Below are positions 1,686 to 12,462 of a stretch of DNA of 52,236 nucleotides, piece after piece (within the stretch, counting starts at the first letter, position 1; each line of letters opens with the position of its first letter). The notes beneath the pieces are model-generated. The model was not told the origin of the DNA, did not search any database, and was given only the letters and a program-made list of their open reading frames with translations. The translations under genes and the position numbers were made by a program. The stretch is taken from the NCBI GenBank assembly GCA_025355585.1, contig JANXZJ010000070.1:1-52236 (forward strand). Reading direction: 5' to 3'. This DNA comes from Mariniphaga sp. (GTDB lineage: Bacteria; Bacteroidota; Bacteroidia; Bacteroidales; Prolixibacteraceae).

Positions 1686-4310
1686 CTATTCCTCTTTTCT
1701 GATAAATGATTTGAAACTAAACGGGTAAGGGATTCCATACATCGCTTTATATTCTTTTGCAAAATACTCATATTCAATAAATGATTGATTATGGTTCTTT
1801 TGTTTGATCAGGGATTCAATCTTTAATTTAAAAGCTTCTTCATTCAATGGATCAGACATTAAAATCAAATTCGCAATACGACAGATCGCTTCGGGGTTTT
1901 TATCTTTTTCAAACGAGTCAGCAAGCATAAAGAGATAATCGAGTAATGAACTCAGAAACTGACTTTTGAATGAATCGAGCCATGGTGTTCTTTCGTCAGC
2001 AACAAATGCACCCTGAGAAAGTATAAGAACTATTCGCTCAAATTCCTCATGGGTGACCGGTTGAAAATCGCCCTTCATCTTTTTGACCAAAAAATGATAA
2101 TCACAAAAAATTTCAGAACTTAACCTTATTGTCCAACTTCCTTCATTATGAACTATTTGAATGCCTTTTAAACCACTGAGCAGATCCCTTAATTTCTTAA
2201 TATTTACATTTCTGTTATTTTTAGCACTTTGCGGAGAGTGGTACATCCAGTGAATTCCGTTTAACTTTTCATTGCTAATGCCATTTTCATTCGTGCCTAA
2301 CAGGAAAACCGACAAAAAGAGATGTTTTAACTTTGATGATAAAAGATGACTAATTTCCCCTCCTTCAGCATCATAAATATGAAATTCTCCAAATAGGTAA
2401 ATGGCATTCTTCCGGGGTAATACTACATGGTTCTTGTTAAAATTTTCCGTTCTGGAAGGGGCTTTATCACTTACCAGCGAATTCATTTTTTGTTCATCCT
2501 CCAAATCTTCTTCAGCTCTGTGAAGTTTTTTCAATAGCAGGTATAGCAGGTAAACCATTATAAAAGAAAGCACCGCGACCATCCAGTAAACGGGGTTCGT
2601 CCAACTTCCGGGAGTTGATAAAATTGTCCTGGACCTAAACGACATCAAAGATCGATTTACAGGTGGATAAGTAAGTGAAAAAATCTTATAATTTGCTGAG
2701 TCTCTCCCTGCCTGTGTTTTTATCACTGCATAAAATTCCTGCGTCTTTCTGAAAAAGAACAAGGAAGCTTTTGATCGTTCTTCATCAAAATAGAAGTGGA
2801 TGGTATCGCTCACGACAGAGTATCCGGCATTATCAAGCGAAATTCGATACAGTTTCAGATAGGTGCCATTCAGAAATGGAGGAAACCCAAGTACATAAAG
2901 TGCAGGATGTTGTTCAGGAACAGTAGTCGAACCCATTGGGATAAAGTTTTCCGAAACATTGTCCATTTGCCACTTTTTTCTGAGAACCGAATCTTTGAGA
3001 TTCAACTGATAGAGATCATACAGACATTGAGGACCAAGCTCCTGCTGTCCAGACGCATTGCCGTAGCCACCAAAGATAAGATATTCGCCGGGATTGCGTG
3101 TTTCGGTTACTGAAGCGTACGAGCGGGGTTCTAATTTGTCTCCTTTAAGCAAGACCTGATCCCAACTCTTCTCCAGAAAACTATAACGCATCAACAGATC
3201 ATAATACCTGTAGCTGCGATAACCTCCTATTGAAAAGGCCGAACCCGACTGTTCATTCATGAAAAATGTTGAATTGATATATTGGGCAGATTCGTTATTT
3301 GGAAGCGCCTTTTCCCATTCATTCTTCCCTTCATCATAAACATTTACCTGCTTAGGAAGAGAGCCCATGCAATATATTTTTTTTTCCGATAAGGAATAAA
3401 AATAGGATTCTGATTTTAAACCCGAAGGCTTGACATTATTTACAATTTGCTCGGTTCTTTCGGATGTAACAATATCATAGGAAACAATTTTGTGTCTGCC
3501 AACAAAGATAATCCGGTTTTGAAGCGTATCGAAAGTCACACCGGACGAAACATCCAATCGCATTTCATCCTTTTTAGTCCAGAAAAAGTGGTTATTTATG
3601 AGCCAGGTAGGATTGGCTATATGTGCCGTAAAATTCCCTTCAAGATCGGTGGCCTCTTCCCCATCAGACTCATTTAACAACCAATTGTGGCGCGACTTTC
3701 CCCGATAATCAGTAATCCTGATATTGCGAATTGCCATTTGGGGAACATCAGTTGTTGGAAAATAGTTTGATTGGTTGGCACCAAAACAGAAATTTAACCG
3801 ACGAATACCGGTCAGATCAACCTTATCATCTGAATAAATAATATCGCCTAAATTTAATTCAACGATTCCAGTCAATAAATCAAACGACAGATTCAGATGG
3901 AGCCAGTTGTTCCTGACCAAATCCTTCTCTGCCAATGCGACATTTATCAAAGTTGGACGCCCGTTTACAACCAGTTTCAAAATTGCCAATGTGCTACTTT
4001 TGGGAATATAAACCAGATCGATATTGTGATGCTGCTTGTCGAAGATCCTGAATACATAACCAAATTGTTCCCGATTCCAAATCGCAAAATCGAACTCAAG
4101 ACTAAATTTATTGCGCACAGTGATTGGAGAATCCGGAGTAAGATTCAATGAGGTCCTCTGCTCCTTTGGTTGAGGTGCTGCCGTAAAAAGAAGTCCTGTA
4201 TGGTACAGATTCTGAGAAGATATTTTATTCGTCAATAACATCAGAAAAACCAGTCCCAAAAATATCCACGACCGATTATTCATACTCGACCCAATTAATT
4301 GTTTATACAT
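1686..4310 (-). CDS. Membrane-tethered regulator: periplasmic LamG/Kelch-like sensor with SARP-like DNA-binding output
   Basis: This 874-residue protein appears to be a one-component regulator that senses outside the cytoplasm and binds DNA inside. Residues about 10-33 are a signal or membrane segment. Residues 40-230 look like a concanavalin/LamG-type beta sandwich. Residues about 250-560 contain Kelch-like propeller blades (for example YLIFGGYGNASG). A single transmembrane helix lies at about 574-595 (MVAVLSFIMVYLLYLLLKKL). After a charged linker, residues about 635-735 resemble an OmpR/SARP winged helix (starting IYLFGEFHIYD). Residues about 745-865 resemble the bacterial transcriptional activator (BTAD) helical repeat, including MSDPLNEEAFKLKIESLI. 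It lies just downstream of the GH130 enzyme, so control of the susC operon is likely. ATG at 4283 is an alternative start. Domain assignments come from motif reading only. Confidence 0.72.
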   Translation of the reverse strand: MYKQLIGSSMNNRSWIFLGLVFLMLLTNKISSQNLYHTGLLFTAAPQPKEQRTSLNLTPDSPITVRNKFSLEFDFAIWNREQFGYVFRIFDKQHHNIDLVYIPKSSTLAILKLVVNGRPTLINVALAEKDLVRNNWLHLNLSFDLLTGIVELNLGDIIYSDDKVDLTGIRRLNFCFGANQSNYFPTTDVPQMAIRNIRITDYRGKSRHNWLLNESDGEEATDLEGNFTAHIANPTWLINNHFFWTKKDEMRLDVSSGVTFDTLQNRIIFVGRHKIVSYDIVTSERTEQIVNNVKPSGLKSESYFYSLSEKKIYCMGSLPKQVNVYDEGKNEWEKALPNNESAQYINSTFFMNEQSGSAFSIGGYRSYRYYDLLMRYSFLEKSWDQVLLKGDKLEPRSYASVTETRNPGEYLIFGGYGNASGQQELGPQCLYDLYQLNLKDSVLRKKWQMDNVSENFIPMGSTTVPEQHPALYVLGFPPFLNGTYLKLYRISLDNAGYSVVSDTIHFYFDEERSKASLFFFRKTQEFYAVIKTQAGRDSANYKIFSLTYPPVNRSLMSFRSRTILSTPGSWTNPVYWMVAVLSFIMVYLLYLLLKKLHRAEEDLEDEQKMNSLVSDKAPSRTENFNKNHVVLPRKNAIYLFGEFHIYDAEGGEISHLLSSKLKHLFLSVFLLGTNENGISNEKLNGIHWMYHSPQSAKNNRNVNIKKLRDLLSGLKGIQIVHNEGSWTIRLSSEIFCDYHFLVKKMKGDFQPVTHEEFERIVLILSQGAFVADERTPWLDSFKSQFLSSLLDYLFMLADSFEKDKNPEAICRIANLILMSDPLNEEAFKLKIESLIKQKNHNQSFIEYEYFAKEYKAMYGIPYPFSFKSFIRKEE

Positions 4311-4324
4311 TTTTGATTATGGAT

Positions 4325-4380
4325 CTAAAATAGAAATTAATCTTGAATTAATCGCCTATTAACCCCCGTTAACCGATTAA
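4325..4380 (-). promoter_or_regulatory. Possible promoter and phased TTAA boxes upstream of the regulator gene
   Basis: On the minus strand TATTTTAG (4325-4332) is close to TAnnTTTG. Further upstream TTAA cores occur at 4337, 4348, 4359, 4369 and 4377, at spacings of 11, 11, 10 and 8 bases. Two are in the CGATTAA/TTAATCG context also found before susC. Binding by any regulator is inference. Confidence 0.35.
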
Positions 4381-4511: not shown

Positions 4512-5711
4512 TTAATATGCGATATAGGGATACTGTTTTTCTAAAATTTTTAGATTTTTAAGAATCAGTTCATCGCGTTGTGCGGCACACAATTGAGTAT
4601 ATCCCGGATCTTCTGGTGTATTACACACAAAATCAACCAATTTATCAAGCGTAGTAGTGGCAACATGCATCCGGGTATCTGAAGATGCATAATAAATAAA
4701 TACGGTACCATCGTTATCCAAAATCCATCCGTTGCAGAAGACAACATTCGATACATCGCCCATTCTTTCCTCCCCCAGCGGTTCAATAAAATGTCCTCCG
4801 GGACGCTTGACCACCCGCCAGGGCTCTTTAAGATCAGTCATGAATAAATACAATACATAACGTAAACCGGCAGCAGTTCGCCTGACGCCATGCGCCAGAT
4901 GCAACCAACCTTTTGAGGTTTTTAAAGGTGCCGGCCCTTGTCCGTTTTTCACTTCTTTGATTGTGTGATACTCTCTAGGGTCTACCATAATTTCGTTTTC
5001 AATCGCAGCATGTACCATTGAATCGCAAAAACCTGCACAGATACCGCTATCGCCCGTATCAATAAAACTCTTTTGAGGGCGCGTATAAATCATATACTTT
5101 CCATCAACAAACTCCGGGTGAAGCACGCAATTCCTTTGCTGCAATGCATTAGATTTCAAGTCGCCTAAACGTTCCCAATCAATCAGATTTTTTGTGCGGG
5201 CAATTCCACAACTTGCCAATGCAGCCGATGAATCTTCAAGATTGCTTTTGTCTTTTCGCTCAGCGCAAAACAAACCGTATATCCATCCATCTTCATGTTG
5301 TGTTAACCTGATGTCATAAACATTTTTCTCAGGATCATCATTGACTGGCATTACGATTGGCCTGTTCCAAAATTTCCACTTATCGATACCATTGGGACTT
5401 TCGGCCACCGCGAAAAAAGATTTCACGTCAAAACCTTCCACCCGGGCAATCATCAGGTACCTTCCATTCAATTTTACAGCCCCGGCATTGAAAGTTGTAT
5501 TAATGCCTAAGCGAATCATCAGGCTTGGATTCGTTTCGTAATTTAAATCATATTGCCAAAAAACAGGGGCATGATCGCGAGTCAGAACGGGAAATTCGTA
5601 ACGGTCATAAATACCATTGCCATTCACCTGCACTTTGTTTGACCTGTTAACCAAGGCATTGTAATCAAAGAATAATTTAAGAAGCTTATTGTCAAATATT
5701 TGTTTTTCCAT
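4512..5711 (-). CDS. GH130 family 4-O-beta-D-mannosyl-D-glucose phosphorylase
   Basis: The predicted reaction is reversible phosphorolysis of beta-1,4-mannosyl-glucose to alpha-mannose 1-phosphate and glucose in the cytoplasm. The sequence carries GH130 landmarks in order: TRDHAPVFWQYDL, NTTFNAGAV, ARVEGFDVKSFFAVAESPNG, NVYDIRLTQHEDGWIYG, RNCVLHPEFVDGKY, GWLHLAHGVR and YYASSDTRMHVAT. Asp at about residue 133 (in VYDIRL) matches the proposed proton-relay Asp131 of the Bacteroides fragilis enzyme. The frame extends upstream to a TTG at 5768, but the ATG at 5711 gives the usual family N terminus (MEKQIFDNKLLKLF) and was preferred. It directly follows the symporter gene, a pairing known from mannan loci of Bacteroides. 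A related mannoside phosphorylase specificity cannot be excluded. Confidence 0.88.
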   Translation of the reverse strand: MEKQIFDNKLLKLFFDYNALVNRSNKVQVNGNGIYDRYEFPVLTRDHAPVFWQYDLNYETNPSLMIRLGINTTFNAGAVKLNGRYLMIARVEGFDVKSFFAVAESPNGIDKWKFWNRPIVMPVNDDPEKNVYDIRLTQHEDGWIYGLFCAERKDKSNLEDSSAALASCGIARTKNLIDWERLGDLKSNALQQRNCVLHPEFVDGKYMIYTRPQKSFIDTGDSGICAGFCDSMVHAAIENEIMVDPREYHTIKEVKNGQGPAPLKTSKGWLHLAHGVRRTAAGLRYVLYLFMTDLKEPWRVVKRPGGHFIEPLGEERMGDVSNVVFCNGWILDNDGTVFIYYASSDTRMHVATTTLDKLVDFVCNTPEDPGYTQLCAAQRDELILKNLKILEKQYPYIAY

Positions 5712-5774
5712 AACGCAAAATGAGTTTCCATCCAAAGGACGAATGCAATTACACGATACTTCTTTCAATCAGAT

Positions 5775-7595
5775 CTAATTCTCGAGTCTGTTGTACCAGT
5801 ATACCTTCAGCAAAACAGAGGTTATCACGAAAACAACCAGGGCAATGGTCATTGATCTGAATTCACGAATAACCAAGTAAATAGGCATAACGACCATTGA
5901 CATTTGCCACACAATGCCTACAACACAGTTCATCATATCGCGTTTAAAATCTGTATTTTTCTGAAAAGCCAGGTTTTCTGCCTTCACCTTTACATAAATA
6001 GGTCTCCAGAATCCCCATGGGCGAACATTCGAATAGAATCTCTTCAGAACCTCCTCATCATCAGGCGCTGTTAACAGACTTCCAGCAATTGAACCAATTG
6101 ATGAAATCAATAAAATAATTGGGAACGAGTTGAGTGCCGAAATATTAGGTAAGAAAAGAGGAATAAATAATGAAGCGACCAATCCGGTAAGCATACCCCA
6201 AAAATAACCATATCCGTTGAAACGCCACCAAATCCATTTTAAAACATTGGCGGCTGTATATCCGCCATATAAGGAGGAAACAATCCATTTGGTCATTGAA
6301 TCAATGGAATCGATAAAAAAACCAAAAATAATTCCAATCGTTACAACAACGAGCGATACAAGGTAGCTCATGTTGATATAGCGTTTGTTAGAAGCATTGG
6401 GATTGACGAATTTTTTGTATATATCGTTCACAATGTAGGCGGGCCCGGCATTCACATATGCGGCATAAGTTGACATAAAAGCAGCAATCAATCCAGCCAG
6501 CAATAATCCCAGTAAACCAGTAGGTATAAAATTACTGACAGCATAAGGTAAAACCATTTCGAAGTCGATGCCTGGTCCCATGGCGACCAGTTTTGGGCTG
6601 AAGTAGACAAGCACCAATACAGTAAAACCGGCAACCATAAAAAACCGGGGAATGAAAAGCACGAGTGAGGTAAAGCCAGTCATACGTGCAGCATCCCGCG
6701 GGCTTTTTGTTGAAAGTATCCGCTGCAAATCGTAGCTTGGGACAGGACCGGCTATACTTGCTAAAATACCTTTAAAGATCATAATCATGAAAATAATGGA
6801 GAAATACTCATAGCCATCAGCCTTAATTTTATTTGTTACAGTAGGAATGAGGTTACTCCAATCGAGGTTCAATTTCCATCCAAAAAACAAATCCTTCCAA
6901 CCTACTGGTATAACTGCATTTAATTGTTCTGCACTCACAAGGTTCATTGCAATAACCCCAACTATAAAGCAGGAAATTGTCATCACAAGGAATTGCATGA
7001 TCTCAGTTGCTACTACACTGTACATTCCTCCTTTTATCGCATAAATCGATGTAAATCCCATTATTAACAAAGCATATATATTCTCGGAAGAGATTACTTT
7101 AGATCCGATTTCAGTGGTTAGGTCCCAAGGGAAAAAAGAGGTTGCAAATTTCCCAATACCAGCAAAAGTGTATGCAATAAAACCTATTACGCTGATAATC
7201 GCAAACACCACAACAATGATATGTGACAGTCGACCTCCTTTATCTTCACCGAAGCGGGTCTTCAACCACTCAGCACCGGTCATGACATTCGAACGCCTCA
7301 GCCAGGTTGCAAGGAAAACCATCAGAAAAATCTGGTTCCAAATTGGCCACATCCAAGGCATCCAGGCCCCTTTGAGACCGTAAACAAAAAGAATAGAAAC
7401 AAACCACATTGTTCCGGTAATATCAAACATACCTGAAGCGTTAGAAATACCCAAAATATACCAGGGAATACTTCTTCCACCAAGAAAATATGAATCAAGA
7501 TTTTTATTGGCACGTTTTGATATCAGAAAGCCAATCAGTATTGTTAAAACCAGGTAACCGATTACTATACCAATATCTAAAGGTTGCAAATTCAT
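5775..7595 (-). CDS. Sodium:solute symporter (SSS/SLC5 family), probable mannoside uptake
   Basis: This 606-residue polytopic inner-membrane protein belongs to the sodium/solute symporter family. It has the typical start (IGYLVLTILIGFLISKRANK), the motif LDSYFLGGRSIPWYILGISNASGMF in the first helices, and about 13-15 hydrophobic segments. The family is known to couple sodium entry to sugar, amino-acid or vitamin uptake. Its place between SusD and the GH130 phosphorylase suggests that it carries a mannose-containing oligosaccharide or disaccharide into the cytoplasm. The ATG at 7595 is well placed. A hairpin at 7689-7720 separates it from susD, so its transcription may be attenuated relative to susCD. 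The substrate is inferred from context only. Confidence 0.85.
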   Translation of the reverse strand: MNLQPLDIGIVIGYLVLTILIGFLISKRANKNLDSYFLGGRSIPWYILGISNASGMFDITGTMWFVSILFVYGLKGAWMPWMWPIWNQIFLMVFLATWLRRSNVMTGAEWLKTRFGEDKGGRLSHIIVVVFAIISVIGFIAYTFAGIGKFATSFFPWDLTTEIGSKVISSENIYALLIMGFTSIYAIKGGMYSVVATEIMQFLVMTISCFIVGVIAMNLVSAEQLNAVIPVGWKDLFFGWKLNLDWSNLIPTVTNKIKADGYEYFSIIFMIMIFKGILASIAGPVPSYDLQRILSTKSPRDAARMTGFTSLVLFIPRFFMVAGFTVLVLVYFSPKLVAMGPGIDFEMVLPYAVSNFIPTGLLGLLLAGLIAAFMSTYAAYVNAGPAYIVNDIYKKFVNPNASNKRYINMSYLVSLVVVTIGIIFGFFIDSIDSMTKWIVSSLYGGYTAANVLKWIWWRFNGYGYFWGMLTGLVASLFIPLFLPNISALNSFPIILLISSIGSIAGSLLTAPDDEEVLKRFYSNVRPWGFWRPIYVKVKAENLAFQKNTDFKRDMMNCVVGIVWQMSMVVMPIYLVIREFRSMTIALVVFVITSVLLKVYWYNRLEN

Positions 7596-7688
7596 AATTC
7601 AGTTATTAGGTTTGTCACAAATACAATGTCAGGTTCTTGAGGCGAATACAGCAAATCCAATAAATTACTATACACTTAAAAACTAGAA

Positions 7689-7746: not shown

Positions 7747-9309
7747 TTAGAAATTTGGGCCTGTAGTATCCCACCATAAGCGGGTGCTGATAAGGTCTGG
7801 TCCACCAAGTTTTGTAGTTGCATCAGCAACGCCAGGAGCATTACCAGTTCTTTCACCATTGGTAAAAGGCATCCTTTTAATCCATTGATCAGCTGGAATA
7901 ACACCCCAGTCCGGACTGCTGTCATTCTTGGCAACATGAGGGATTTTAGGATAACCCGTTCTTCTGAAATCAGTCCACGATTCAAGGGTATTGGTGAAAT
8001 TATTGATCCATTTCTGTGTCATTATTTTTTCAAGTTTCAACTCATTGCTGTCGCCTGCATTCCAGGCAACTGTGATTGTAGAAGATGCTGAAAAATTATT
8101 TCTTGCATCCTTTGGATCAACATAATTAAGTGGTTTGCTCGTTGCATCTGCCAGGTAGGCATCTACACCACCTGCGCCCCAATCGGCAAAGGATAGCTTG
8201 ACACCATCTTCATAATTGGTCTTTGCATCGCCTGCACCTGCCCAACCCCTAAGAGCTGCTTCAGCTTTAAGAAAACTTACTTCAGCAGCAGTTATTGATC
8301 TCCTGGTTTGTACAGTTTGAAAATCATTGGCTACCCTTGAATAAGGTACTCTATCGATTTTGGCATTATCATAAGCACCGTTACGGATTCCTAAGTAGGT
8401 ATATGACGAAAGTGAAGCGTCCTGGCTAAGATTTGGACCCTGGTAGTATTTTGAAATTCTTCCATCCTTTAATCCCATCAGGAAGGATTGCATTACCGCA
8501 CCCATTCGTGTATCGTCCCATTCAAAGCAAATTACGGCCATATACATCTTATTACCTAATAAGGAGATGTTAAAGTTATCTGCATTGGTGGTTATTAACC
8601 CTGCCGGATCGCTCATTGCTTTTTCGCCCTGAGTTTTTGCCAGTGCAGGGGCAATTTTTGTCAGACGCATAGCCAATCTCAATCTCAAGGAATTCACAAC
8701 TTTCATCCATTTTGTAATATCACCATTGTAACTTGGATCGAATTTAGTAAAACCGACGTAAGTTTTGTTCGCGGCAAAATCAGTCTGGATGGAATCTAAC
8801 TGTGCAAAAAAAGTATTGTACAAATCCGACTCTTTGTCATACATTATATTGTTGTCTGTTTTTCCATAATTGGAATAGATCACTGGTCCATGAATAGCAG
8901 TCAGTTTTGAGACAGCAAGTACCCTTATCAATTTTGCCCATGTTGCAAAAAGTGGTAAACCATTGTCTTTCGCCAATTGGATCACTTGTTTAGAAGGGGA
9001 CATTACAGAACCATAAATCCGGTCCCAATAGGCGTTCCACCGTATGTAGTAGGTCGTATTATTGACATTACCAACAAAAGGGGTCGGCGTATTCAAATAG
9101 CCCATCCACGAATCCTGACATAAATCTTCTTCAATCTGATGTCCATTAATATTGAAGAGTAATCCTGAGAACGGCGAACCCACCAGGTTAAAGTCCTGCT
9201 TAAGCATCTCATCAGAAATCTGATAAGGATTCTGGTTCTCAGATACAAATTTATCAGTACAGGATGCTAGTGCACCCAGAAATAGTAATACTATAATTAA
9301 TTTTTTCAT
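7747..9309 (-). CDS. SusD/RagB-like outer-membrane glycan-binding lipoprotein
   Basis: This surface lipoprotein should bind oligosaccharide and cap the SusC channel. It begins with a lipoprotein signal, KKLIIVLLFLGALASC, whose cysteine would be lipidated. A start three codons upstream at 9318 is also an ATG; the one at 9309 gives the more usual MKKL start. The mature part is helical and carries SusD-like features such as WDRIYGSVMSPSKQV near the N terminus and the C-terminal ending around LESWTDFRRTGYP, close to the SusD-like_2 subgroup. The gene begins about 20 bases after the susC stop, so the two are surely co-transcribed. The ligand is presumed to be a manno-oligosaccharide because of the neighbouring GH130 enzyme. 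Confidence 0.88.
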   Translation of the reverse strand: MKKLIIVLLFLGALASCTDKFVSENQNPYQISDEMLKQDFNLVGSPFSGLLFNINGHQIEEDLCQDSWMGYLNTPTPFVGNVNNTTYYIRWNAYWDRIYGSVMSPSKQVIQLAKDNGLPLFATWAKLIRVLAVSKLTAIHGPVIYSNYGKTDNNIMYDKESDLYNTFFAQLDSIQTDFAANKTYVGFTKFDPSYNGDITKWMKVVNSLRLRLAMRLTKIAPALAKTQGEKAMSDPAGLITTNADNFNISLLGNKMYMAVICFEWDDTRMGAVMQSFLMGLKDGRISKYYQGPNLSQDASLSSYTYLGIRNGAYDNAKIDRVPYSRVANDFQTVQTRRSITAAEVSFLKAEAALRGWAGAGDAKTNYEDGVKLSFADWGAGGVDAYLADATSKPLNYVDPKDARNNFSASSTITVAWNAGDSNELKLEKIMTQKWINNFTNTLESWTDFRRTGYPKIPHVAKNDSSPDWGVIPADQWIKRMPFTNGERTGNAPGVADATTKLGGPDLISTRLWWDTTGPNF

Positions 9310-9328
9310 ATCAAACATTTTTAAGATA

Positions 9329-12300
9329 TTAGAAAGTGACTTTTAAGTTAAACCCGTAAGTCCTTGTGGCAGGCATACTAAATACCTCATTTGACTGCAT
9401 ATTATTAGCGGTACTCATTGATTGTTCCGGATCGTACGGAGCTTTTTTGTAGAAGAAGAATAAGTTCCTACCAATCAAGGATATCGAAGCTTCTTTTAGC
9501 GGTAAATTGAGTTTTTGCATATTCAGGTTATAACCAATGACAAATTGAGCCAATCTGACATTTGTTCTTGAGAAGACATAAGGTTCCATAATCCTGTTTC
9601 TGTCACCAACTGCACCATAATAAACTACGGGATCGATTGAAGTTACCGCAGTAGTTCCCTGGATAGCGTTAATCGGCATTGTAGCGCCTGCATCACGAAC
9701 ATCTCCTGTTCTTTTGCTTACGCCGTAGGAATCAAGAAATGCTTCTGTTTTTGAGAATGCAACACCACCAAACTTACCATTGATAAGAAAACTAACGTAG
9801 AAATCTTTAATATTAATGGTATTATTCCATCCTGCAACATAATCGGGATTTACATTTCCAACTTTTTCCTGTTTGGCTGCCTTTGTAGGAACCCCTTTGT
9901 CATCAAGAATGATCTGACCGGCAGCATTTTTCGCAAACTTATAGATCCATACATCGTTAAAAGATCCACCTGCTTTGATGATGGCAGCAAAACCTTCGTT
10001 ATCGCCCCCAACCTGGTAATCAGGATTCGAAGCTATAAGCTCCTCAATTTTATTTTTATTTTGCGATAAATTCAGCGATGATTTCCAACTTACAGTGGTT
10101 GTTTTTACAGGTTCAACGTCTAAGGTTAGTTCAAAACCTTTATTCGTTATTTTACCGGCATTTACATAGTAACTGGTATAGCCTGAACCTGATGGAGCAG
10201 CTAATGTCAGGAATTGATTCTTGCTTATATCACTATAGTAAGTGAATTCCAATCCAGCTCTTCCATTGAAAAATCTCATTTCAGCTCCAAGTTCATTACT
10301 GGTTACCTCTTCAGGTTTCAGATTGGTAAAAGGAACCTGCGTATTTCGGTTAATACCACCGATTCCGGTAGGTGTACCTGTACCACCAATACTATTCTGA
10401 GGATTTACCACATTAAATGGCACTTCGTTGGCGGTTCGGGATACAGAACCCCTTATTTTAGCGAAGGAGATTACTTCAGGCATTTTAATCATTTGACTTA
10501 CAATTGCTGAAAGTCCGGCAGCAGGATATAAATAGGATTCATTACCGGTAAGCGCCAAGGTAGATGCCCAGTCGTTACGAGCAGACAAATCCAAAAACAA
10601 CATCTCTTTATATCCTATTTGTGCATTTGCAAATGCTCCTTCTTTAATTATTTTATTGATTGACTGATTAAACATGACGTTGTAAGGCATGTTCGCGAAT
10701 GAAAAGAAGTTGGGGTACATCAAACTAGTTGTACCATTTGAAACAGACATACCATCGTTGAAAATATTATGCTGATAGCTGGCACCCAAAAGAGCATTTA
10801 AACTGAAGTCGCCAAACTTATTATTATAGCTCAATATTCCGTCAGTATAAATCTGCTTATCATTGTATTTAGAATAATTCCATGATCCGTTAGGACTAAC
10901 ACTCACAGAGTTTCCGGCTGCAGCATACCTGTAATCATTAACTCTATCGTTATAATCAATGTTTCCCCTGACATCAAATTTAAGATTCTTGGAAATATCC
11001 CACGACAACTTTAAACTGGCAATTGCACGATAGGATGTATTTTCTTTGGGATCATTGTAGAGCTCCCAGAAAGGATTATTTTGCTTTTCCTCGGTAGAAT
11101 ACCAATTCATCTGGTTTAAATTCCTGTCCTTATTAAAAACCTGATAGTTCGTTTTGTAGTCGCCAAAATTTCTTTCGCGTGCAAACAAATACAACCCGGT
11201 AAGTGGGTTATTGTAATAACCGGCACCTGGGCGATTGTGAGTCAACTCACTTGAAAACATCACATTTGAGCTGATTGTGACTTTATCATTAAACAACTTT
11301 GTTGACTGATTAAAGGCAAAGTTATTTTTATCATACCGGTTTGTTGGTAAAACACCTGTGGCAGTGACATTGGAATATGAAAAATAGGTTGTGGTTTTGT
11401 CATTTCCGCCACTGACAGAAATTGAATTCGTAAGATTCAACCCATGTTGGAAAAAATCTTTGATATACGAACTTTGATAATTTCCTTTTGTCTTTGACCA
11501 GCTATAATCTGATCCGCCAACTGCGCCATAACTATACTGAAATTCTGGTAAGCCAGATACAGTTTCAACCATTGTGCTGGAACTAATGTTCACACTGATT
11601 TTTCCTGCTTTACCTTTCCTTGTAGTGATGAGAACGACACCATTTGCGCCCTGGCTACCGTAAAGTATAGAGGCGTTTGCACCCTTAAGGACGTTGATAC
11701 TTTCAATATCATCACTATTCAACGCTGAAAGTCCATCACCGCTATCGGTTCCTCCATATGAATCAGGCTGACCACCTTTATTGTTGACCATCGGAATACC
11801 ATCAATTACATAAAGAGGTTCGCTGAGGCCTACAAGTGATTTATTTCCTCTTAATACCGCTTTGGTGGAACCACCGGCTCCTGAACTGCTCGTTTTAATA
11901 TCCAAACCGGCTGTTTTCCCACTAAGGGCATTCATAAAATTCTGATCTCTTGCTTTCAACATCTCATCTCCGGAAACTTGCTGAGAAGCATAAGTCAAAG
12001 TTTTCTTTTCGCGCTGGATACCTAAAGCCGTAACAACAACTTCAGTAACTCCAATTGACTCGGATTCCATCTTTACATTGATGACCGATCTGCCATTGAC
12101 AACTTCCTCGACAGGTCTCATTCCTACAAATGTAAATTGAAGAACAGCATTTGAAGAATTCAAATTCAAAGAGAATTTCCCATCATTGTCGGTAGACGTT
12201 CCAATAGTCGTGCCTTTCTGAACAACAGACACGCCAGGAATTTTGCTTCCGTCGGGATCTGTGACAGTCCCGCTTACTTTTACCTGAGCCATTGCACTGG

Positions 12301-12349
12301 CAAACGAAGCAAACAGTAAGATAAGAATAACGTACATTCGTTTCTTCAT
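9329..12349 (-). CDS. SusC/RagA family TonB-dependent outer-membrane transporter
   Basis: This 1006-residue outer-membrane barrel imports oligosaccharides using energy from TonB. Residues 1-21 are a signal peptide (ends FASAMAQ). Residues about 22-105 are a carboxypeptidase-regulatory-like domain (VSGTVTDPDGSKIPGVSVV). The plug follows, with LRGNKSLVGLSEPLYVIDG and the SusC signature ANGVVLITTRKGK. The remaining 750 residues are barrel strands ending in aromatic VTF. There is no N-terminal secretin/STN domain, so transfer of a signal to an anti-sigma factor is not expected. It is the first gene of the locus; the promoter region contains spaced CGATTAA boxes. Confidence 0.93.
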   Translation of the reverse strand: MKKRMYVILILLFASFASAMAQVKVSGTVTDPDGSKIPGVSVVQKGTTIGTSTDNDGKFSLNLNSSNAVLQFTFVGMRPVEEVVNGRSVINVKMESESIGVTEVVVTALGIQREKKTLTYASQQVSGDEMLKARDQNFMNALSGKTAGLDIKTSSSGAGGSTKAVLRGNKSLVGLSEPLYVIDGIPMVNNKGGQPDSYGGTDSGDGLSALNSDDIESINVLKGANASILYGSQGANGVVLITTRKGKAGKISVNISSSTMVETVSGLPEFQYSYGAVGGSDYSWSKTKGNYQSSYIKDFFQHGLNLTNSISVSGGNDKTTTYFSYSNVTATGVLPTNRYDKNNFAFNQSTKLFNDKVTISSNVMFSSELTHNRPGAGYYNNPLTGLYLFARERNFGDYKTNYQVFNKDRNLNQMNWYSTEEKQNNPFWELYNDPKENTSYRAIASLKLSWDISKNLKFDVRGNIDYNDRVNDYRYAAAGNSVSVSPNGSWNYSKYNDKQIYTDGILSYNNKFGDFSLNALLGASYQHNIFNDGMSVSNGTTSLMYPNFFSFANMPYNVMFNQSINKIIKEGAFANAQIGYKEMLFLDLSARNDWASTLALTGNESYLYPAAGLSAIVSQMIKMPEVISFAKIRGSVSRTANEVPFNVVNPQNSIGGTGTPTGIGGINRNTQVPFTNLKPEEVTSNELGAEMRFFNGRAGLEFTYYSDISKNQFLTLAAPSGSGYTSYYVNAGKITNKGFELTLDVEPVKTTTVSWKSSLNLSQNKNKIEELIASNPDYQVGGDNEGFAAIIKAGGSFNDVWIYKFAKNAAGQIILDDKGVPTKAAKQEKVGNVNPDYVAGWNNTINIKDFYVSFLINGKFGGVAFSKTEAFLDSYGVSKRTGDVRDAGATMPINAIQGTTAVTSIDPVVYYGAVGDRNRIMEPYVFSRTNVRLAQFVIGYNLNMQKLNLPLKEASISLIGRNLFFFYKKAPYDPEQSMSTANNMQSNEVFSMPATRTYGFNLKVTF

Positions 12350-12405: not shown

Positions 12406-12462
12406 CAAAACTAAAAGGAGACGATTAACAGAACGATTAATTTAACGATTAATAACAATTAA
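12406..12462 (-). promoter_or_regulatory. Probable susC promoter with three ACGATTAA boxes at 12-bp spacing
   Basis: On the minus strand TAGTTTTG (12406-12413) fits the TAnnTTTG -7 element, 56 bases before the susC ATG. There is no TTTG at the -33 position. Instead ACGATTAA (written on the plus strand) occurs at 12421, 12433 and 12445, exactly 12 bases apart, and a TTAA follows at 12459. This arrangement suits an activator-dependent promoter; the binding protein is unknown. Confidence 0.45.

Follow-up and report, generated by a model that had tools for sequence, protein, structure and literature searches.

A predicted membrane-tethered SARP-type regulator and a candidate operator at a Sus operon of Mariniphaga

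Described regulators of Sus operons and the SARP proteins

The sections of PMC3878776 that we draw on ascribe the control of polysaccharide loci in Bacteroides to hybrid two-component systems (HTCS), SusR-like proteins and ECF sigma systems, and the control of a Sus operon by a tethered one-component protein is already known from SusR of B. thetaiotaomicron, a single membrane protein with a periplasmic sensor and a cytoplasmic DNA-binding end. In an HTCS, too, periplasmic sugar sensing switches on the neighbouring Sus operon through one polypeptide. Outside these systems, ToxR and CadC are membrane regulators with an OmpR-type winged helix. SARPs such as AfsR, EmbR and PimR combine a winged helix of this type (ODB) with a BTAD domain, both placed at the N-terminus of proteins that have no membrane segment. 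In the excerpts that we use, a SARP site is made of direct repeats spaced by 11 or 22 bp, with the 3' one lying 8 bp from the -10 element (PMC10936776), the operator of PimR consists of three heptamers (PMC5930380), and SARPs are "exclusively found in actinobacteria" according to a review of 2024 (PMC10972967).

The DNA analysed here, called the window, is a stretch of 52,236 nucleotides from a draft genome of Mariniphaga sp. One of its genes very likely encodes a SARP-type regulator that is tethered to the membrane and controls the Sus operon beside it; the regulator's ligand and the sign of regulation we infer. Like the SARPs, the protein is predicted to carry a winged helix followed by BTAD, and the direct repeats at its presumed target end 8 bp from the -7 box. 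Unlike them, it has the SARP domain at the C-terminal end, behind a membrane helix and a periplasmic sensor; its family occurs in Bacteroidota, and the family's repeats are of a TTAA type with a period of 11-12. It shares with the HTCS the control of a neighbouring Sus operon by one polypeptide, but differs from them in that HisKA, HATPase, receiver and AraC domains are all absent by Pfam. With the transmembrane transcription regulators surveyed in PMC10269533 it shares, as far as prediction goes, a DNA-binding domain joined to a membrane segment within one protein; its DNA-binding end, however, is C-terminal and includes a BTAD domain, and the available main text of that survey contains neither the word Kelch nor the word BTAD.

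Architecture of the predicted regulator

The regulator gene is a single intact ORF of 874 aa (1686-4310, minus strand) and the sole match of its kind in its own draft genome. Eight same-genus orthologues (66-86% identity) bear on its start codon. In four of the eight the frame is interrupted by stops upstream of the equivalent of M10, which led us to consider a pseudogene reading; the ORFs of these four are nevertheless intact from the conserved start (862-865 aa), and we dropped this reading. Because of these in-frame stops and of the upstream alignment, the real start is probably M10 (MNNRSW...) at coordinate 4283, which gives a gene at 1686..4283 (-) and a protein of 865 aa. Residue numbers below follow the 874-aa numbering.

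The sensor part begins with a signal peptide (4212..4283, -; residues 10-33), recognised by eye; many relatives also have hydrophobic N-termini. It is followed by a predicted LamG/ConA-like beta domain (3591..4205, -; residues ~36-240), a feature absent from the earlier sequence-only reading of this DNA, which is all-beta in the structure model and matches Laminin_G_3 in hhalign at a moderate level (Prob 64, E 6.5e-5; neurexin E 0.0015). A Kelch-type beta-propeller (2670..3578, -; residues ~245-547) is indicated by Pfam, by PDB profile matches and by Foldseek, for which the best matches are Kelch structures. The Pfam match to PF24681 spans residues 317-500 and lies below the curated cut-off in the window protein; the same family is found in all 25 aligned relatives (E<=0.1). 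The transmembrane helix (2526..2591, -; residues 574-595) corresponds to the single hydropathy peak of the protein (residues 574-592), and a peak at the same place of the alignment occurs in 24 of the 25 relatives, L006 being the one without it. The AlphaFold2 model built on the 25 relatives (mean pLDDT 83.7) places these parts in the order signal helix, beta domain (~40-232), strands up to residue 547, a helix at 571-605, a low-confidence linker, and a winged helix followed by further helices.

Behind the membrane helix come basic residues and the low-confidence linker (600-628), which is probably disordered and would suit an alternative in which a signal triggers cleavage within the membrane and the SARP domain, once free, works as a soluble factor. 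We consider this unlikely, as no protease is found by Pfam among the genes of the cluster, and SusR, which is also tethered, is described without mention of cleavage in the relevant sections of PMC3878776. The arrangement is best explained by a regulator predicted, from sequence and model, to remain membrane-bound and to contact the promoter with its SARP domain.

The cytoplasmic end consists of a predicted OmpR-type winged helix (2121..2411, -; residues 634-730, with the recognition helix at 693-711) directly followed by an all-helical, BTAD-like domain (1701..2102, -; residues 737-870), each supported by model, Foldseek and profile. Modelled alone, this C-terminal domain reaches a pLDDT of 93.5, and Foldseek matches it at E<=0.001 to six chains of the PDB, three of EmbR and three of AfsR, aligned over about 250 columns. 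The link by sequence profile runs through intermediates. The window protein's DNA-binding part has no match in Pfam or NCBIfam, and a PDB search with the single sequence also left the C-terminus unlabelled. Among the 25 relatives, Pfam recognises Trans_reg_C in two C-termini and BTAD in one, all weakly. The profile of the 25 C-termini, searched against the PDB, found neither AfsR nor EmbR at E<=10; it reached only PhoB/SaeR-type winged helices (PhoB-family best, 0.009) and TPR proteins, and the profile of the type II relatives reached AfsR at 0.12 only. The bridge is formed by the five Pfam-scanned proteins (L174, L176, L177, L182 and L184; Pfam BTAD E 8.7e-9 to 3.7e-25) among 15 loci (L173-L187) with distant matches to the SARP module: the window family profile matches their alignment with E 7e-24 over 228 columns, and the alignment in turn matches AfsR (5.5e-20) and EmbR (5.4e-15) over their SARP domains. 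The window protein is thus called SARP-type by its predicted fold and by this profile chain only, not by Pfam cut-offs. Together with the protein of L242, the five form a set of Pfam-positive BTAD proteins in Bacteroidota, one of which carries AAA and TPR regions like the large SARPs and one a MEDS domain.

Residue roles in AfsR, including DNA contacts, can be taken from the available text of PMC10936776. All 25 relatives retain W74 of AfsR, and 23 of them retain R94; at the position of T88 all 25 have V, and at that of R92 19 have K or R. Most of the base-contact residues of AfsR differ in the window family.

The sequence-only reading had described a single-protein membrane sensor-regulator made of a signal segment, a Kelch-like region, one transmembrane helix, a winged helix and a BTAD-like repeat. 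Profiles and models recover this whole layout. That reading would have given up its proposal had the C-terminus lacked a winged-helix fold; the structure prediction and profile search that it suggested for this region instead return a model with the SARP fold, matched to EmbR and AfsR by Foldseek and by profile through the intermediates.

The adjacent cluster and the candidate operator

On the same strand as the regulator lie genes for a GH130 enzyme (PF04041; 4512..5768, -), a sodium:solute symporter (PF00474; 5775..7595, -), a SusD-like lipoprotein (PF12741; 7747..9318, -) and a SusC-like TonB-dependent transporter (9329..12349, -), all assigned by Pfam; the last of these is the predicted target. 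The group is flanked by an OmpA-family gene and a malic enzyme gene. Sigma-70 region 2/4 and FecR domains are found by Pfam neither in the regulator nor in the cluster genes. The order SusC-SusD-symporter-regulator is kept down to a regulator of 35% identity (L156). GH130 was also considered as a necessary partner, an idea that we dropped, as it is missing from L021/L148 (one contig), L149, L150, L152 and L153. The earlier description of the cluster as a mannoside locus has its basis in one GH130 gene, which several orthologous loci lack. In one of these, L021, which is 86% identical, the symporter is split into two ORFs (8003-9827) and GH130 was not found.

Upstream of susC we find a candidate operator, which is new here and which the sequence-only reading did not contain. 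It consists of three TTAATCG direct repeats with a period of 12 (12422..12452, -; 12452-12446, 12440-12434 and 12428-12422), and 8 bp beyond the last repeat lies the candidate -7 promoter box TAGTTTTG (12406..12413, -), 56 nt from the start codon. The box fits TAnnTTTG, which we take to be the Bacteroidota -7 consensus. When the susC upstream regions of the window and of six orthologous loci are aligned, the main conserved block is formed by TTAATCG-like repeats and the box, with a spacer of 8 bp (9 in L155) and one mismatch to TAnnTTTG in L156.

An 18-base pattern made from this site occurs once in the 4.09-Mb draft genome at <=1 mismatch, and its reversed control not at all. The view that a membrane-tethered one-component regulator controls the adjacent locus, put forward in the sequence-only reading, gains support from this uniqueness of the susC promoter array. 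Without mismatches the pattern is present once each in seven of nine same-genus genomes with an orthologue of the regulator (own included), versus none of six without (p 0.0056), and in seven of 11 versus none of 16 among all 27 genomes searched (own again included; p 0.0004). In the two same-genus misses the contig with the regulator ends before the susC promoter, and because of this their site may be unassembled or different. The sites of G664 and G668 are off by one base in the box and one in the spacer. In G647 the site is on another contig, and in G646 it lies on the contig of the regulator but ~43 kb away from it; the G646 operator pattern is at 80716-80762 of contig C79, and the ORFs near the regulator (L152) include some of SusC/D size that are unmatched by the seeds. 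A lax two-repeat pattern is not special, with three occurrences in the window at <=2 mismatches, a number reached by 9 of 100 shuffles.

The window array agrees with the SARP geometry in its direct repeats and in the distance from the 3' repeat to the box, which is 8 bp here and in most family sites (7-9 allowed); its period is 12 (11 or 12 in the family), not 11. This spacing also bears on the possibility that protein and operator are the same, but that susC is kept off by the tethered SARP domain for as long as the ligand is missing. The repeats overlap the core promoter, which would suit a repressor, and the sequence cannot tell the sign of regulation. The 8 bp to the -7 box, however, are those of SARP activators in the excerpted text of PMC10936776, and the BTAD domain, which in AfsR contacts sigma region 4, is present; we regard repression as quite improbable and favour activation of susC by the tethered protein.

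The stretch before the regulator's own gene (4325-4353, -) contains two GATTAAT repeats (4336..4353, -; period 11) of a sense opposite to that of the susC repeats. They abut a TATTTTAG box, 3 bp ahead of it, and similar pairs occur in several orthologues. Judged by its sequence, this may tentatively be an autoregulatory site.

The operator was followed through the family with a strict rule: three TTAA cores with a period of 11 or 12, the last 14-16 bp before a box with <=1 mismatch. In the first set this gave nine sites in eight of 19 loci, all intergenic, versus none in 37 controls (p 5e-5), a comparison to be read with the fact that the TTAA core was suggested by a blind repeat scan of these first loci and hence chosen after viewing them; the 19 also include L066-L068, which are not of the full Kelch type. 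The clean test is provided by 34 later, unseen loci, many of them orthologues, to which the rule was applied unchanged. Seven carry strict sites and 12 strict or relaxed ones, all intergenic (12/34 vs 0/57 controls, p 1.7e-6; 11/34, p 6e-6, without L204). Twenty SusC promoters without the regulator have no site, nor does the strict rule find any in reversed letters. When the 61 full-type loci are collapsed at 45% identity into 27 clusters, 18 of them carry a site, as do 17 of 26 without the window's own cluster, versus none of 57 control loci; nine of the 26 have no site. A stricter count, which removes the clusters of L155 and L156 as members of the discovery alignment and scores L204, whose site precedes no gene, as a miss, still gives 14/24 (p 1e-9). 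By hand count, the two sets hold 24 sites, of which 13 precede SusC and six precede GH92, GH76 or GH99 genes; four more stand before a sulfatase, a GFO/IDH oxidoreductase, a LamG protein and a CarboxypepD_reg protein, and one (L204) before none. The distances from site to gene are 18-333 bp, L204 excepted.

These controls weigh against assigning the repeats to a different regulator or to susC promoters in general. Many regulators act on SusC promoters, and the operator here is a predicted one; but 0/20 SusC promoters without the regulator and 0/37 random loci carry the array, whose presence tracks the regulator gene and whose geometry suits the SARP fold, and we judge such an assignment very improbable. 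Least probable of all is that the protein is a SusR-family regulator: SusR, from which it is set apart by description only, is likewise a membrane protein with a periplasmic sensor, and its C-terminal DNA-binding part belongs to no known family according to the SusR sections of PMC3878776, but the predicted SusR direct repeats given there are 67 or 77 bp apart, versus 11-12 bp here.

The operator type has limits within the family. None of 16 type II loci has the TTAA operator. In two of them (L165 near 6856 and L172 near 8353), TTACCCC-like direct repeats lie 8-9 bp before TAnnTTTG, directly 3' of the regulator genes, and are perhaps the type II regulators' own operator type. In nine loci outside Bacteroidia the strict rule found a site twice, within an ORF in L041 and between genes in L049. 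The L049 site (10601, +) has three perfect TTAACCC repeats with a period of 12 ahead of a box and of a SARP module present as a short tandem copy; in L047 there are three GGGTTAA repeats.

In the mechanism that we propose, an oligosaccharide would enter the periplasm via SusCD and bind the LamG/Kelch module. Ligand binding would gather SARP domains on the tandem repeats covering the -33 region, or free them for these repeats, and the domains would keep sigma region 4 over a promoter whose -7 box is good, activating the operon as AfsR does in Streptomyces. Membrane insertion and DNA binding are predicted by sequence and model, whereas the periplasmic ligand, and with it glycan sensing, as well as oligomerisation, activation and the sigma contact, are steps that we infer.

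Genomic context, sensor variants and meaning

Protein matches occur, own genome included, in 15 of 395 genomes sampled at the level of the phylum, 5 of 395 at that of the class, 12 of 247 at that of the order and 93 of 140 at that of the taxonomic family; these counts take in relatives that match in the C-terminal part only. Sixteen such ORFs (L157-L172) all have a hydropathy peak right before the SARP module, and in the 15 that were scanned (L167 left out) Laminin_G_3 lies ahead of it. A small sensor is seen in two short ORFs, of 479 and 511 aa. Because relatives that match in the C-terminal part only carry other sensors, the membrane-SARP output is a module whose sensor can be exchanged.

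The sequence-only reading would also have failed if homologues never occurred near glycan loci, and it asked whether they sit beside SusC/D pairs. In Bacteroidia, 12 of 19 loci have a SusC at a distance of up to 8 kb, versus 11 of 37 random loci of these genomes (p 0.017); the numbers are 9/19 versus 5/37 for 5 kb (p 0.008) and 5/19 versus 2/37 for 2 kb (p 0.038). Three of originally 40 random controls (L091, L094 and L097), two of which hold SusC, were removed, as they overlap or adjoin regulator loci. Among the 34 further loci SusC is present in 26 (p 8.4e-5 versus the same 37 controls, which come from other genomes and were called at another cut-off: E 1e-10 in the first set, 1e-8 for the 34). 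Thus, homologues do occur near SusC. As a universal partner SusC was dropped: outside the class it exceeds the family cut-off in one of the eight searched genomes that carry the gene. In L042, genes for an ECF sigma factor and FecR (5702-7662) stand between regulator and susC, which makes two kinds of regulator at a single locus, and no repeat array was found. At L065, L067 (by eye) and L068, membrane SARP regulators lie beside genes for a DcuC carrier and an amidohydrolase, at L065 also an M14 peptidase, which suggests a non-glycan substrate. Because of these three observations, the family as a whole cannot be labelled "glycan regulator". At L057 a complete HTCS (4788-7589; Peripla_BP_4, HisKA, HATPase, receiver and AraC) stands beside a GH32 set; the regulator adjoins it and faces a GH76/SusC set.

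As for the substrate, GH92, GH76 and GH130 genes are not enriched in the first set (5/19 vs 6/37). With GH99 added, the 34 further loci give 19/34 versus 6/37 (p 5e-4), in which the loci are partly orthologous, the controls come from other genomes, and GH99 and GH76 were sought after viewing L199 and L221, members of the same 34. Overall, 25 of 53 non-independent loci have GH76, GH92 or GH99 neighbours, versus 6 of 37 (p 0.002). Mannan specificity is kept as a hint, with the first set alone not significant; for the window, with its GH130 gene, a mannoside ligand is plausible.

Among the matches listed in the openly licensed literature, we found no paper on SARPs with Bacteroidetes or Bacteroidota and membrane, Kelch or SusC; the papers found there on BTAD in Bacteroidetes concern contractile injection systems. 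We think it likely that a further class of Sus-locus regulators exists, for which we suggest the name tmSARP: membrane SARPs with exchangeable sensors (LamG plus Kelch; X plus LamG; short and beta-like) that would read TTAA-type direct repeats beside the -7 box. Through sigma adaptation they would provide the contact at -33, which would be the mechanism of Streptomyces carried out from the membrane in Bacteroidota. If this is true, the tmSARPs, together with the Pfam-positive BTAD proteins that have no membrane sensor, contradict the statement that SARPs are found in actinobacteria only, and the best-studied fold of antibiotic regulators would be placed in an unrelated phylum and a membrane setting. 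The predicted operator would provide a sequence rule for target genes and sensor-substrate pairs to test, and the system would make it testable whether a factor held in the membrane can dock sigma region 4 on DNA.
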